A stretch of 64,000 nucleotides of DNA from NCBI GenBank assembly GCA_947500415.1, contig CANMRT010000001.1:1576982-1640981 (forward strand), in the 5' to 3' direction. The DNA comes from an uncultured Roseicyclus sp. (GTDB lineage Bacteria > Pseudomonadota > Alphaproteobacteria > Rhodobacterales > Rhodobacteraceae). A program made the position numbers and the translations under genes. Below are positions 7,654 to 45,500 of the stretch, piece after piece. Under the pieces are notes generated by a model. That model was not told where the DNA came from, searched no databases, and was given only the letters and a program-made list of their open reading frames with translations. Every line of letters begins with the position of its first letter. Position 1 is the first letter of the stretch.

Positions 7654-9413
<1,760 letters not shown>

Positions 9414-41684: not shown

Positions 41685-42494
41685 ATGACCCCTACCCGAT
41701 CCATCCCCGCGCAGGCCCTCGGACCCAAACATGCAAGCGACGTCGCCCGCTCGCTCCCCGAGGAAACGCCTGTGGCCATTACCGTCAACGGCACCACCCA
41801 AGCCGTCATGATGTGCAGCCCTGCCGACCTCGAAGATTTCGCTACCGGCTTCGCCTTCACCGAGGGCTTCGCGACCCCCGACCAAATCGACTCCATCGAG
41901 ATCATCGAAACCAAAGCAGGTATCGAAGCCCGCCTCTGGGTCCCCGATGCCATCGCCGACGCCCTTGGCGACCGCCGACGCGCCATGATGGGTCCCGTCG
42001 GCTGCGGCCTCTGCGGGATCGATTCCCTCGAACAGGCGCTCCGCGATCTGCCGGTCCTGGGGCAGGGCGGCTCCATCGGTCTGGCCGCGGCCGCAAAAGC
42101 TCCAGAAGCCCTCCGCGCCCACCAACCGCTCCACGACCTCACCCACGCCGTCCACGCCGCAGGCTTCCTTTCGCCAGACGGCGAGATCGTGCTGGCCCGC
42201 GAAGACGTGGGCCGCCACAACGCCCTCGACAAGCTGATCGGCGCCGCCTTGCGCACGGGCCAGGACCTGAGCCAGGGTGCAATCGTGCTGACTTCCCGCA
42301 TCTCGGTCGAGATGGTCCAGAAAACCGTCCTCGCTAGAAGCCCCATCCTCATCGCCGTCTCCGCGCCGACCGCCCACGCCGTGCGTCTGGCCGAACCCGC
42401 AAACCTCACAATCGCCGCCTTCGCCCGCGATGGCCGGCTCGAGACCTTCACCCATTCCAACCGCATCGACCGGAGCAAAACCCATGCCGCATGA
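41685..42494 (+). CDS. fdhD: Formate dehydrogenase sulfurtransferase FdhD
   Basis: A 269-residue protein with FdhD features: an N-terminal TVNGTTQAVMMCSPADLEDF with FATGFAFTEGF, the two-cysteine GPVGCGLCGIDSLEQ near residue 105 that shuttles sulfur, and REDVGRHNALDKLIG near 175. FdhD transfers sulfur from IscS to the molybdenum cofactor of FdsA, without which the enzyme is inactive. The ATG at 41685 gives the normal length; the open frame upstream to 41595 belongs to the hairpin-rich spacer. Its end overlaps the start of fdsD. Confidence 0.94.
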   Translation: MTPTRSIPAQALGPKHASDVARSLPEETPVAITVNGTTQAVMMCSPADLEDFATGFAFTEGFATPDQIDSIEIIETKAGIEARLWVPDAIADALGDRRRAMMGPVGCGLCGIDSLEQALRDLPVLGQGGSIGLAAAAKAPEALRAHQPLHDLTHAVHAAGFLSPDGEIVLAREDVGRHNALDKLIGAALRTGQDLSQGAIVLTSRISVEMVQKTVLARSPILIAVSAPTAHAVRLAEPANLTIAAFARDGRLETFTHSNRIDRSKTHAA

Positions 42495-42687
42495 AAAACT
42501 CACTCGCATGGCCAACCAGATCGCCACCTTCTTCGCCACCCAACCCGGCACCGATCAGGCCGAGCGTGTCGCGATGCACCTGAACGATTTCTGGGGCCCT
42601 GAAATGCGCGCCGAGCTAAAGGCCCAGGCCGCCGAGGATGACAGCGATCTATCGCCTCTGGTGAAGGAAGCGATCCCTCTGATCTGA
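42484..42687 (+). CDS. fdsD: Formate dehydrogenase delta subunit
   Basis: A 67-residue protein, MPHEKLTRMANQIATFFATQ at its N terminus, with the helix-rich FdsD pattern (HLNDFWGPEMRAELKA). FdsD proteins accompany FdsA/FdsC in cofactor insertion or stability of the enzyme and are usually 60-80 residues. It starts inside the end of fdhD (11-base overlap), so both are coupled. It is the last gene before the palindrome array. Confidence 0.9.
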   Translation: MPHEKLTRMANQIATFFATQPGTDQAERVAMHLNDFWGPEMRAELKAQAAEDDSDLSPLVKEAIPLI

Positions 42688-42694
42688 GCAGACA

Positions 42695-42911
42695 TGCGTT
42701 CGTCTGAACGCCGTTTTGCGCCTACGCGAAAATCCGTTCACCTGAACGCTTTTTCCGCAAATAACCCGTTCACCTGAACGCATATCTGCTCAGGTGAACG
42801 CAGTTTGCCACCCGCTCCGCACTTGCGACGGAATCCGTTCATCTGAACGCAGTTTCCGCAAAATACCTGCTCACTTGAACGCATCCCCGTTCACGTGAAC
42901 GCATTTTAGAC
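42695..42911. repeat. Array of seven GTTCA-N2-TGAAC palindromes
   Basis: Seven copies of a 12-base palindrome start at 42698, 42736, 42768, 42788, 42837, 42869 and 42889. Core forms are GTTCACCTGAAC (twice), GTTCGTCTGAAC, GTTCATCTGAAC, GTTCACGTGAAC, GCTCAGGTGAAC and GCTCACTTGAAC. The right half TGAACGC is kept in all. Spacings are 38, 32, 20, 49, 32 and 20. The 32-20 pattern repeats with a 101-base period, showing a duplicated block of about 70 bases (from 42736 and from 42837). It lies after fdsD and ends about 85 bases before the dehydratase ATG, so it looks like a multi-site operator for that gene. Confidence 0.85.
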
Positions 42912-42986: not shown

Positions 42987-44756
42987 ATGTCCAACACCCG
43001 CGCCAATCGCCGTTACCGGTCTCAGGAATGGTTCGACAATCCCAACAACCCGGGCATGACCGCGCTCTACTTGGAGCGCTACCAGAACCAGGCCTTCACC
43101 CAGGCTGAGTTGCAGGCGGAAAAGCCGATCATCGGTGTGGCGCAGACTGGCTCCGACCTCGTGCCGTGCAATAAAATCCATGTATTTCTGATGGATAGGA
43201 TCAAGGCGGGCATCCGCGATGCGGGTGGCATCCCGCTGGAATTTCCCGTCCATCCGATCCAGGAAACCGGCAAACGCCCCACCGCCGCGCTCGACCGGAA
43301 CCTGCAATACCTGTCGCTTGTGGAGGTCCTGCACGGCTACCCCATCGACGGCGTCGTGCTGACCACCGGCTGCGACAAGACCACCCCCGCCATGCTCATG
43401 GGCGCGGCCACCGTGGACCTCCCCGCCATCGCCCTGAACGGCGGCCCCATGCTCGACGGCTGGTTCCGCGGCAAGCGCGCAGGCTCCGGAACCAGCATCT
43501 GGGAAGGCCGCCGTCTGCTCGCCAAAGGTGAGATAGATTACAATGAATTCATGGAGTTAGCTTGCGCCTCCTCCCCCTCACTCGGCCACTGCAACACCAT
43601 GGGCACGGCCTCCACAATGAACGCTTTGGCCGAAGCGCTCGGCATGACGCTCCCCGGCGCGGCAGCCATCCCCGCGCCCTTTCGCGAGCGGATGGAGATG
43701 GCCTACCTCACCGGTCGCCGCGCCGTTGAAATGGTCGAAGAAGATCTCAAACCTTCCGACATCCTCACCCGCCAAGCCTTTGAAAACGCGATCAAAGTCA
43801 ACACAGCCATCGGCGGCTCCACAAACGCGCCACCCCATCTGCAAGCCCTCGCGCGCCATGCAGGCGTCGAGCTTCATGTCACAGATTGGGAAAAGATCGG
43901 TCACGCCTTGCCGCTTCTCGTCAACATGCAACCCGCCGGCGAATACCTCGGCGAGAGCTTCTTCCGCGCCGGCGGCGTCCCGGCCGTGATGGGTGAGTTG
44001 ATGGCTGAAGGCCTACTGGACGGCACGGTGATGACCGCTTCTGGCAAACCGCTCGGCGAAGCACTTGGCGAAATTCGCTCATTAGATCAGGATGTTATCC
44101 GCCCTGTCGCAAACCCCATGCGGGATCACGCGGGCTTCGCGGTTCTGTCGGGCAATCTCTTCGACAGTGCCCTGATGAAGACCTCCGTCATCTCCGAAGA
44201 CTTTCGCACACGGTTCCTGAAAGACAACCGCTACGAGGGCCGCGCCGTCGTATTCGAGGGACCCGAGGACTACCACGACCGCGTGAACGACCCCGAATTG
44301 GCCGTCGACGAAGAATGCATCCTCTTCATCCGCGGCGTCGGTTGCGTCGGATACCCCGGCTCGGCTGAGGTTGTGAACATGCAACCCCCTGATATGCTTA
44401 TCAAAGAAGGCATCAAGCATCTGCCAACTGTCGGAGATGGGCGCCAGTCTGGCACGTCTGAGAGCCCGTCAATCCTGAACGCGTCACCCGAATCCGTCGT
44501 CGGCGGCGGCCTCGCCTACCTTCAGACCGGAGACCGGGTCCTGCTGGACCTCAACGAAGGCACGCTGAACGCGCTGGTTCCAGAGGACGAATGGGAAGCC
44601 CGCAAAGCTGCCTGGACGCCGCCAGAGATCCACCACCAAACCCCATGGCAGGAACTTTATCGCAAGCACGTCGGGCAACTTGCAGACGGCGGCTGCCTTG
44701 AGCTTGCTACAGCCTATCAAAGGATCGCGAAGGACCTTCCTCGCGATAACCACTAG
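42987..44756 (+). CDS. IlvD/Edd family dehydratase (sugar-acid, arabinonate/xylonate type)
   Basis: A 589-residue [Fe-S] dehydratase. Cluster cysteines are in LVPCNKIHV near residue 55, TTGCDKTTPAML near 125 and SLGHCNTMGTASTM near 195. The C-terminal part has FIRGVGCVGYPGSAEVVNM and the conserved GDGRQSGTSESPSILN. The N terminus (YRSQEWFDNPNNPGMTALYLERY) is that of the sugar-acid branch (L-arabinonate, D-xylonate, galactonate) rather than IlvD proper. It would form a 2-keto-3-deoxy sugar acid. The ATG at 42987 is preferred to an upstream GTG at 42963. It stands alone, downstream of the palindrome array. Confidence 0.87.
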   Translation: MSNTRANRRYRSQEWFDNPNNPGMTALYLERYQNQAFTQAELQAEKPIIGVAQTGSDLVPCNKIHVFLMDRIKAGIRDAGGIPLEFPVHPIQETGKRPTAALDRNLQYLSLVEVLHGYPIDGVVLTTGCDKTTPAMLMGAATVDLPAIALNGGPMLDGWFRGKRAGSGTSIWEGRRLLAKGEIDYNEFMELACASSPSLGHCNTMGTASTMNALAEALGMTLPGAAAIPAPFRERMEMAYLTGRRAVEMVEEDLKPSDILTRQAFENAIKVNTAIGGSTNAPPHLQALARHAGVELHVTDWEKIGHALPLLVNMQPAGEYLGESFFRAGGVPAVMGELMAEGLLDGTVMTASGKPLGEALGEIRSLDQDVIRPVANPMRDHAGFAVLSGNLFDSALMKTSVISEDFRTRFLKDNRYEGRAVVFEGPEDYHDRVNDPELAVDEECILFIRGVGCVGYPGSAEVVNMQPPDMLIKEGIKHLPTVGDGRQSGTSESPSILNASPESVVGGGLAYLQTGDRVLLDLNEGTLNALVPEDEWEARKAAWTPPEIHHQTPWQELYRKHVGQLADGGCLELATAYQRIAKDLPRDNH

Positions 44757-44873: not shown

Positions 44874-45500
44874 TTAAAGCCGCGCCAGCGCGACCTCCAG
44901 ATCGCCGTATCCCGTAAACCGCCGCTCGAACGCCAAGCCCAAAGCCTCTGCATGACCGCGCGCCTTTTCGGTTAAGGCCGGGTCATCTACCTGTGCTTGA
45001 TAGACCAACGTCGTGTATTTGCCGAAGTACATGTCGCGCAATTCAGGGAACCGGTCCAAGCCCAACGGTTTCGTCACGAAGGCATCGAATTGCTTCACTA
45101 GGAAGTCCGTCAGGTAGAAACACGTCATCTCTCCACGGGACTCAAACGCCTGATTCCCCTCGAAAAACGAGTAGCAATGCGGGCCTTCCAGCATCTCGAC
45201 CCCCAACTCCGCGCACTTGGACTGTAACAATCCGCCGGTTCCACAGTCGGCGTAGAGCACAAAGATATCGTCATAGTCTGCGCGTCTGCGCACCACAGCC
45301 TCTTCCACGGCGGCAGGGATCAGGTCCGGTGTGTTGTGGAGTTTCGCGGGCAAGCAATGAAGATCCAAATGTTCCCAATGGTTTAGCTGCTTTAGGGCGA
45401 GAACCTCATGGGCCAGCGCGCCGCAAGCGAGCAACAGGATGCGCCCTGATTTCTGTGCATTCATGCCGAGTTCAACAAGATTTTTATCATCGACGTGCAT
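44874..45500 (-). CDS. DUF1638 protein
   Basis: A 208-residue cytoplasmic protein of the DUF1638 family, recognised by ILLLACGALAHEVLAL, LDLHCLPAKLHNTPDLIP and the cysteine-containing VLYADCGTGGLLQSKCAE. It also has GPHCYSFFEGNQAF and FYLTDFLVKQFDAFVTKPLG. Its genes are often found near corrinoid methyltransferase genes, and in roseobacters it has been tied to split B12-dependent methionine synthase. The exact reaction is unknown to me. The start at 45500 is preceded by AAAAGG; a later ATG at 45464 is possible. Confidence 0.8.
   Translation of the reverse strand: MHVDDKNLVELGMNAQKSGRILLLACGALAHEVLALKQLNHWEHLDLHCLPAKLHNTPDLIPAAVEEAVVRRRADYDDIFVLYADCGTGGLLQSKCAELGVEMLEGPHCYSFFEGNQAFESRGEMTCFYLTDFLVKQFDAFVTKPLGLDRFPELRDMYFGKYTTLVYQAQVDDPALTEKARGHAEALGLAFERRFTGYGDLEVALARL

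Follow-up and report, generated by a model that had tools for sequence, protein, structure and literature searches.

The seven palindromes between fdsD and a dehydratase gene in the window (the whole stretch of 64,000 nucleotides analysed here) belong to a family of at least 39 arrays of the same architecture in the 4.0-Mb genome, G000. We propose, with slightly less than even confidence, that this array is one of at least 39 putative chromosomal nodes at which a dimeric protein binds DNA sequence-specifically. From the spacing of the arrays and their place on the chromosome we infer that the set forms clade-specific, fast-evolving chromosomal nucleoprotein nodes that work like Noc or SlmA sites.

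The seven-site array in the window

Seven 12-mers resembling GTTCANNTGAAC make up the window array (Table 1). Four are perfect, three carry one mismatch, and all run on as TGAACGC, with steps of 38, 32, 20, 49, 32, and 20 bp. The earlier note on this DNA had described seven near-perfect palindromes with this common right half, and both observations were confirmed. Three further sites with at most one mismatch stand isolated in the window, at 9310, 34760, and 59366. The raw count of GTTCANNTGAAC with up to two mismatches is mildly high for the whole window (31 compared to a shuffle mean of 20.8, with 1 of 100 shuffles reaching 31), and the non-random feature is the clustering of the sites.

The array consists of two three-site cores on the minus strand and one outlying site. 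It has a 101-bp period, in which 74 of 109 bases are alike. The earlier note had found this period and had explained it by duplication of a block; the period stands, but the duplication does not follow from it. The two 78-bp cores have an identity of 0.769, compared to a mean of 0.718 for other pairs of G000 cores, and 17.9% of those pairs reach that value or a higher one. The two window cores therefore resemble any two arrays of the family, and a recent 101-bp duplication is not established. In another genome of the genus, G005, the same locus has one core, to which core 2 of the window is 0.88 identical, and a solitary site. In a third, G001, the fdsD spacer holds a different palindrome, TCCCGAACGGGA. 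A DUF1638 gene lies after the dehydratase gene (window 44874-45500).

Table 1. Features of the window array and its neighboring genes (window coordinates)
Feature	Position	Strand	Remarks
fdsD (formate dehydrogenase delta subunit)	42484..42687	+	PF11390; stop codon 7 bp before first 18-mer
Outlying 18-bp site (TGCGTTCGTCTGAACGCC)	42695..42712	.	38 bp ahead of core 1; 12-mer start 42698
Core 1 site C	42733..42750	-	array orientation minus; 12-mer start 42736
Core 1 B-C spacer	42751..42764	-	T-run/NCG/A-run type
Core 1 site B	42765..42782	-	12-mer start 42768
Core 1 site A	42785..42802	-	12-mer start 42788
Core 2 site C	42834..42851	-	12-mer start 42837
Core 2 B-C spacer	42852..42865	-
Core 2 site B	42866..42883	-	12-mer start 42869
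Core 2 site A	42886..42903	-	12-mer start 42889
Dihydroxy-acid/6-phosphogluconate dehydratase family gene (ILVD_EDD)	42987..44756	+	PF00920, PF24877

A genome-wide family of arrays

Perfect copies of GTTCANNTGAAC occur 61 times in G000, compared to once for the pattern read backwards. A genome scan had been suggested in the earlier note, with even dispersal of the palindrome counting against its reading. The palindrome does occur dispersed over the genome at an even spread, but every one of the 61 perfect copies sits inside an array. Pattern searches found 30 arrays, as well as a 31st region (L068) with a lone site only. R1, a sequence-only covariance model built on 31 cores, found nine further arrays, giving a total of at least 39.

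The core of these arrays is three dimer sites arranged as A-20-B-32-C (in bp). This arrangement was seen in every one of the first 30, with the middle site of L081 falling under the cut-off. Each site is 18 bp long and is composed of two YSYGYYCA half-sites, in which G4, C7, and A8 are nearly fixed, around two free centre bases. The B-C spacer is A/T-rich and reads as a T-run, NCG, and an A-run. Extra sites beyond the core are optional and are found at steps of 24 or 48 bp, or of about 38 bp. The best identity between two G000 cores is 0.91 and the mean is 0.72, with no near-identical recent copies.

Chromosomal spacing and gene context

The arrays of G000 lie about 100 kb apart around the chromosome. 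The gaps between the 39 arrays have a coefficient of variation of 0.48 when taken contig by contig, and of 0.47 when the arrays are placed on a circle inferred from the collinearity of four contigs with G001, compared to 0.96 for random placement. No gap is shorter than 25 kb, where 8.2 are expected, and the smallest is 25.58 kb. Random points given a 25-kb exclusion zone are less even than the arrays as well (0.70). The 43 arrays confirmed or counted in G005 have a value of 0.58, again compared to 0.96, and two gaps under 25 kb compared to 9.5 expected; the smallest, 9.96 kb between one pair of arrays, counts against the node reading. G001 has 13 arrays, and two sampled stretches of 360 kb contained none except one decayed array, so spacing in G001 is far less even.

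The arrays are not confined to the origin region, as the 39 are distributed around the four collinear contigs. If the origin is assumed to lie near parB (C4:316k), the opposite point would fall at about C2:140k, and arrays are found at C2:117k and 236k. By hand count and with a merely assumed origin, about 25 of the 39 arrays share a polarity relative to replication, a number that carries no weight in our argument.

Gene context was determined for 30 G000 arrays with a simple purpose-written gene-calling script. Twelve lie between convergent genes, 16 between tandem genes, and two between divergent genes. The other 87 gaps in the same loci comprise 7 convergent, 55 tandem, and 25 divergent ones. 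Convergent gaps are thus enriched among the arrays (12 of 30 compared to 7 of 87; Fisher p 0.00017) and divergent gaps are depleted (2 of 30 compared to 25 of 87; p 0.012). Many arrays start 0-2 bp past a stop codon. None of the 30 is clearly within a gene, except at L088, where the purpose-written caller places a gene over the array.

Conserved positions and changing dialects

The earlier note's proposed comparison with close relatives supported conservation. Counted at loci with alignable flanks, 35 of the 39 G000 arrays are matched by an array at the orthologous position of another species; no counterpart array was found for L072, L076, L080, and L132. Each of the 13 G001 arrays shares its locus with an array of G000 or G005, and 35 of the 43 G005 arrays share theirs with an array of G000. 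Orientation agrees in every pair tested (30 of 30 for G000-G005 and 9 of 9 for G000-G001). The sequences are a different matter. Only nine of the 30 G000-G005 pairs have similar cores (0.88-1.00), and the other 21 are at background identity (0.56-0.77 with the centres included, compared to a mean of 0.67 for unrelated loci). Orientation is kept in these 21 pairs as well.

The half-sites fall into the dialects GTTCA, GACCA, TCCCA, and TCCCG, the last with a 43-bp step. Among the 30 paired arrays, 14 are mainly of the GACCA type in G005 and two are in G000, and 12 of the 30 loci have the GTTCA type in G000 and the GACCA type in G005. The G001 dialect is TCCCG/TCCCA, and at the L089 locus each of G000, G005, and G001 has a dialect of its own. 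At the L081 locus G001 retains a decayed array, which is of the older type, and it has none at L079, L080, and L086. L080 of G000 is a complete 5-site array; the flanking genes are 19 bp apart in G001, and no counterpart was found in G005. Dialect change at kept loci, together with the presence and absence of arrays, shows that sites turn over in place and that whole arrays are also gained and lost. The route of turnover may be point change under selection, exchange with other strains, or conversion between arrays. In G010, an array segment (L112:3078-3640) cannot be aligned with the sister genome G009, and its flanks are 97% and 89% identical. This suggests an exchange or insertion.

Distribution among relatives

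R1 was run on 13 genomes of the genus at an E value of 0.001. It found arrays in G000 and G005, about four in G010, and one weak place in G001, and it found none in the remaining nine. In G001, TCCCGAACGGGA forms A-20-B-43-C arrays at 11 loci. A second model, R2, brought the G001 total to 13 by adding two arrays whose half-sites are TCCCA and one of which has a 32-bp step. R2 also gave one weak match in G007 that R1 had missed, consisting of two TCCCA-type sites 20 bp apart at the locus of G005 L099 and G001 L120. The L089 locus of G007 has a single similar site. The TCCCA-type traces in G007 are located at L300:46-85 and L161:1390. In the eight remaining members of the genus, no site pair was found in the 17 to 241 kb searched of each and no array was found at the compared loci (at L096, six relatives were comparable). 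A dialect-blind detector recovered 34 of the 39 arrays in G000 and all 11 tested in G001, with zero off-target matches, and it found nothing in 220 kb of G009 and 180 kb of G012. Since several relatives do not have arrays, their role is not essential for the genus.

Outside the genus, a scan of 394 family genomes returned only the query's own genome, under stricter filters that divergent dialects could escape and with one genome per genus apart from a few exceptions. In 300 kb of three genomes from other genera, two GC-rich chance matches were found at a relaxed threshold, along with artefacts of a masked stretch. Plasmid, phage, and viral collections gave no array match, using one array query for two of them and one exact pattern for the third, searches that other dialects would escape. 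An origin of the arrays from a plasmid, phage, or virus was set aside on this result. No account of such arrays was found in the literature, which was covered incompletely.

Probable protein sites and alternative explanations

The arrays could instead be RNA elements, acting as bidirectional terminators or 3'-end hairpins. Their location at the 3' ends of genes fits this idea, as do the T-runs next to sites B and C; the G001 sites are near-perfect hairpins, and single-strand folds of the arrays are more stable than those of shuffled sequences (z -3.3 to -8.4). Fold stability is not decisive, since palindromes must fold in this way and an RNA would as well. Covariation is more informative and was mostly negative. 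Arm complementarity is below that of arms drawn randomly from other sites in G000 (6.05 compared to 6.24 of 8) and in G005 (5.94 compared to 6.25), and the small excess in G001 is not significant (P 0.11). The free centre bases showed no excess pairing between sites, and only 1 of 14 predicted pairs has a two-sided change. Compared as whole sites, A and C of G000 are more complementary than shuffles (P 0.038), and in G005 the same is true of the pairs A-C and B-C (P below 0.001). Mixed dialects could be the cause. Rfam gave no relevant match at the four loci searched. A sub-threshold Rfam match to the Caulobacter sRNA CC2171 was seen beside an array at L066:3111-3287 on the plus strand (43.2 bits, gathering 75). 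With arms and centres mostly free of covariation, independent half-sites for a protein dimer are favored over hairpins, and we consider RNA elements improbable.

Another possible explanation, which we regard as unlikely though not negligible, is that the arrays are intergenic repeats, non-autonomous mobile ones or BIME-like, which have no role in the chromosome, are distributed by some enzyme and tolerated at gene 3' ends, and owe their spacing to target immunity or to selection against close copies. Clade restriction, high copy number, and 3'-end placement are all expected of such a repeat, the L080 pattern implies that a full array can be gained or lost in one piece, and the segment around the G010 array points to exchange. 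However, re-insertion would not keep position and orientation while the sequence turns over, G000 has no near-identical recent copies, the plasmid, phage, and viral collections gave no match, and the Y1/RAYT transposase PF01797 is absent from G000, G005, G001, and G010 at an E value of 0.001. A dispersed regulon, in which the arrays are ordinary operators of one transcription factor for about 40 genes including the dehydratase gene, would account for palindromic dimer sites, for the 86 bp between the last 12-mer of the window array and the dehydratase start, and for the 16 of 30 arrays between tandem genes. It is very unlikely, given the placement away from promoters (12 convergent and only two divergent), the lack of any perfect site outside the arrays, the fixed multi-site geometry, and the even spacing. 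The local form of this idea, an operator for sugar-acid use as the earlier note had suggested, is rejected on the genome-wide search and gene context, as G000 has at least 39 such arrays, mostly at gene 3' ends. Bound arrays could also mark the chromosome as self, stopping or inactivating a translocating nuclease or loop-extruding defence complex that would then spare the chromosome and not foreign DNA, with an arms race driving the dialects. Such a roadblock would agree with the even spacing, with the quick turnover of dialects and the patchy occurrence of arrays across species, and with the absence of this array class from the searched collections of plasmids, phages, and viruses, but the scheme is wholly inferential and we give it little credence.

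A model of three-dimer nodes

A structural node, that is an anchor, loop base, or boundary, is the most likely role of the arrays and ranks above these rivals. The centre distances of 20, 32, and 43 bp are near whole turns of the helix, which places A, B, and C on one face. The earlier note's suggestion of a multi-site platform for a DNA-binding protein gains support from this spacing, from the independence of the half-sites, and from the conserved architecture. Three dimers could dock side by side, bend the B-C spacer, and form a compact complex, and the long B-C step could take one more turn (43 bp) without loss. Such complexes would recur about every 100 kb, and their spread might anchor, loop, or delimit the chromosome in the manner of Noc, SlmA, and MatP sites. 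The half-site sequence and the recognition surface of the protein would drift together, producing the dialects.

It is possible, although we lean against it, that this amounts to a previously undescribed chromosome-organising system, in which a fast-evolving dimeric protein builds nodes of three dimers at the 3' ends of genes, one in every 100 kb or so, and the node set switches dialect in place, array by array, with position and polarity kept. It would be comparable to eukaryotic boundary or insulator elements. Few chromosome-wide site systems are known in bacteria (parS, NBS, matS, and SBS), and they change slowly. Here, one genus appears to offer three or four dialects at shared chromosomal addresses, with mixed arrays and a decayed one as intermediate forms. 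Should a binder be confirmed, this would be a natural experiment on a protein and dozens of sites switching specificity together, and the purpose of evenly spaced nodes would become directly testable.

Candidate binders and comparison with known systems

A search for ParB-domain proteins returned an ordinary ParB and an orphan ParB-like protein; the array-binding protein was not found, and the function given to the arrays is thus read from the pattern of spacing and chromosomal place. The orphan gene (G000:C4:144321; L202:955-1845, minus strand) encodes a protein that scores 58.8 bits with TIGR00180 and 45.1 bits with the Noc model, under the cut-off of the latter. Its presumed recognition-helix residues vary between species. 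The gene is present in 11 of 13 genus genomes, array-bearing and array-less alike, and in G000, G005, and G001 its distance from an array is about 6 kb. It is a weak candidate, as G009 has the gene yet no array in 220 kb.

The arrays are not parS. The parS consensus is TGTTTCACGTGAAACA, from which the YSYGYYCA half-sites differ, and exact parS copies were found near parB in stretches of G001, G005, G009, and G012, separate from the arrays. REP/BIME, Bru-RS, and other intergenic palindromic repeats share with the arrays an intergenic, repeated, and palindromic nature and a location near gene 3' ends. Here, in contrast, the arms do not covary, the sites form evenly spaced triplets of protein sites, and no RAYT is present in the four array-bearing genomes searched; REP/RAYT repeats were rejected on the missing PF01797 transposase and the arms. 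The res sites of serine recombinases likewise combine three palindromic sites for dimers, one gap being short and the other long, but about 40 arrays per chromosome and differing central dinucleotides set the present family apart. SlmA and MatP sites are palindromes that occur by the dozen and serve to guide division or to organise a domain of the chromosome. The arrays likewise number dozens per chromosome, but the motifs differ, and SlmA and MatP sites are not fixed triple arrays.

Noc offers a further parallel. The Noc binding sites (NBS) are reported to be spread over the chromosome except near the terminus, and a specificity switch is documented inside the Noc/ParB family (PMC7383237). 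The arrays resemble NBS as short dimer palindromes spread widely over the chromosome, but they appear to differ in lying all round the inferred circle, and they differ in forming fixed three-site units at gene 3' ends, and in turning over within one genus.
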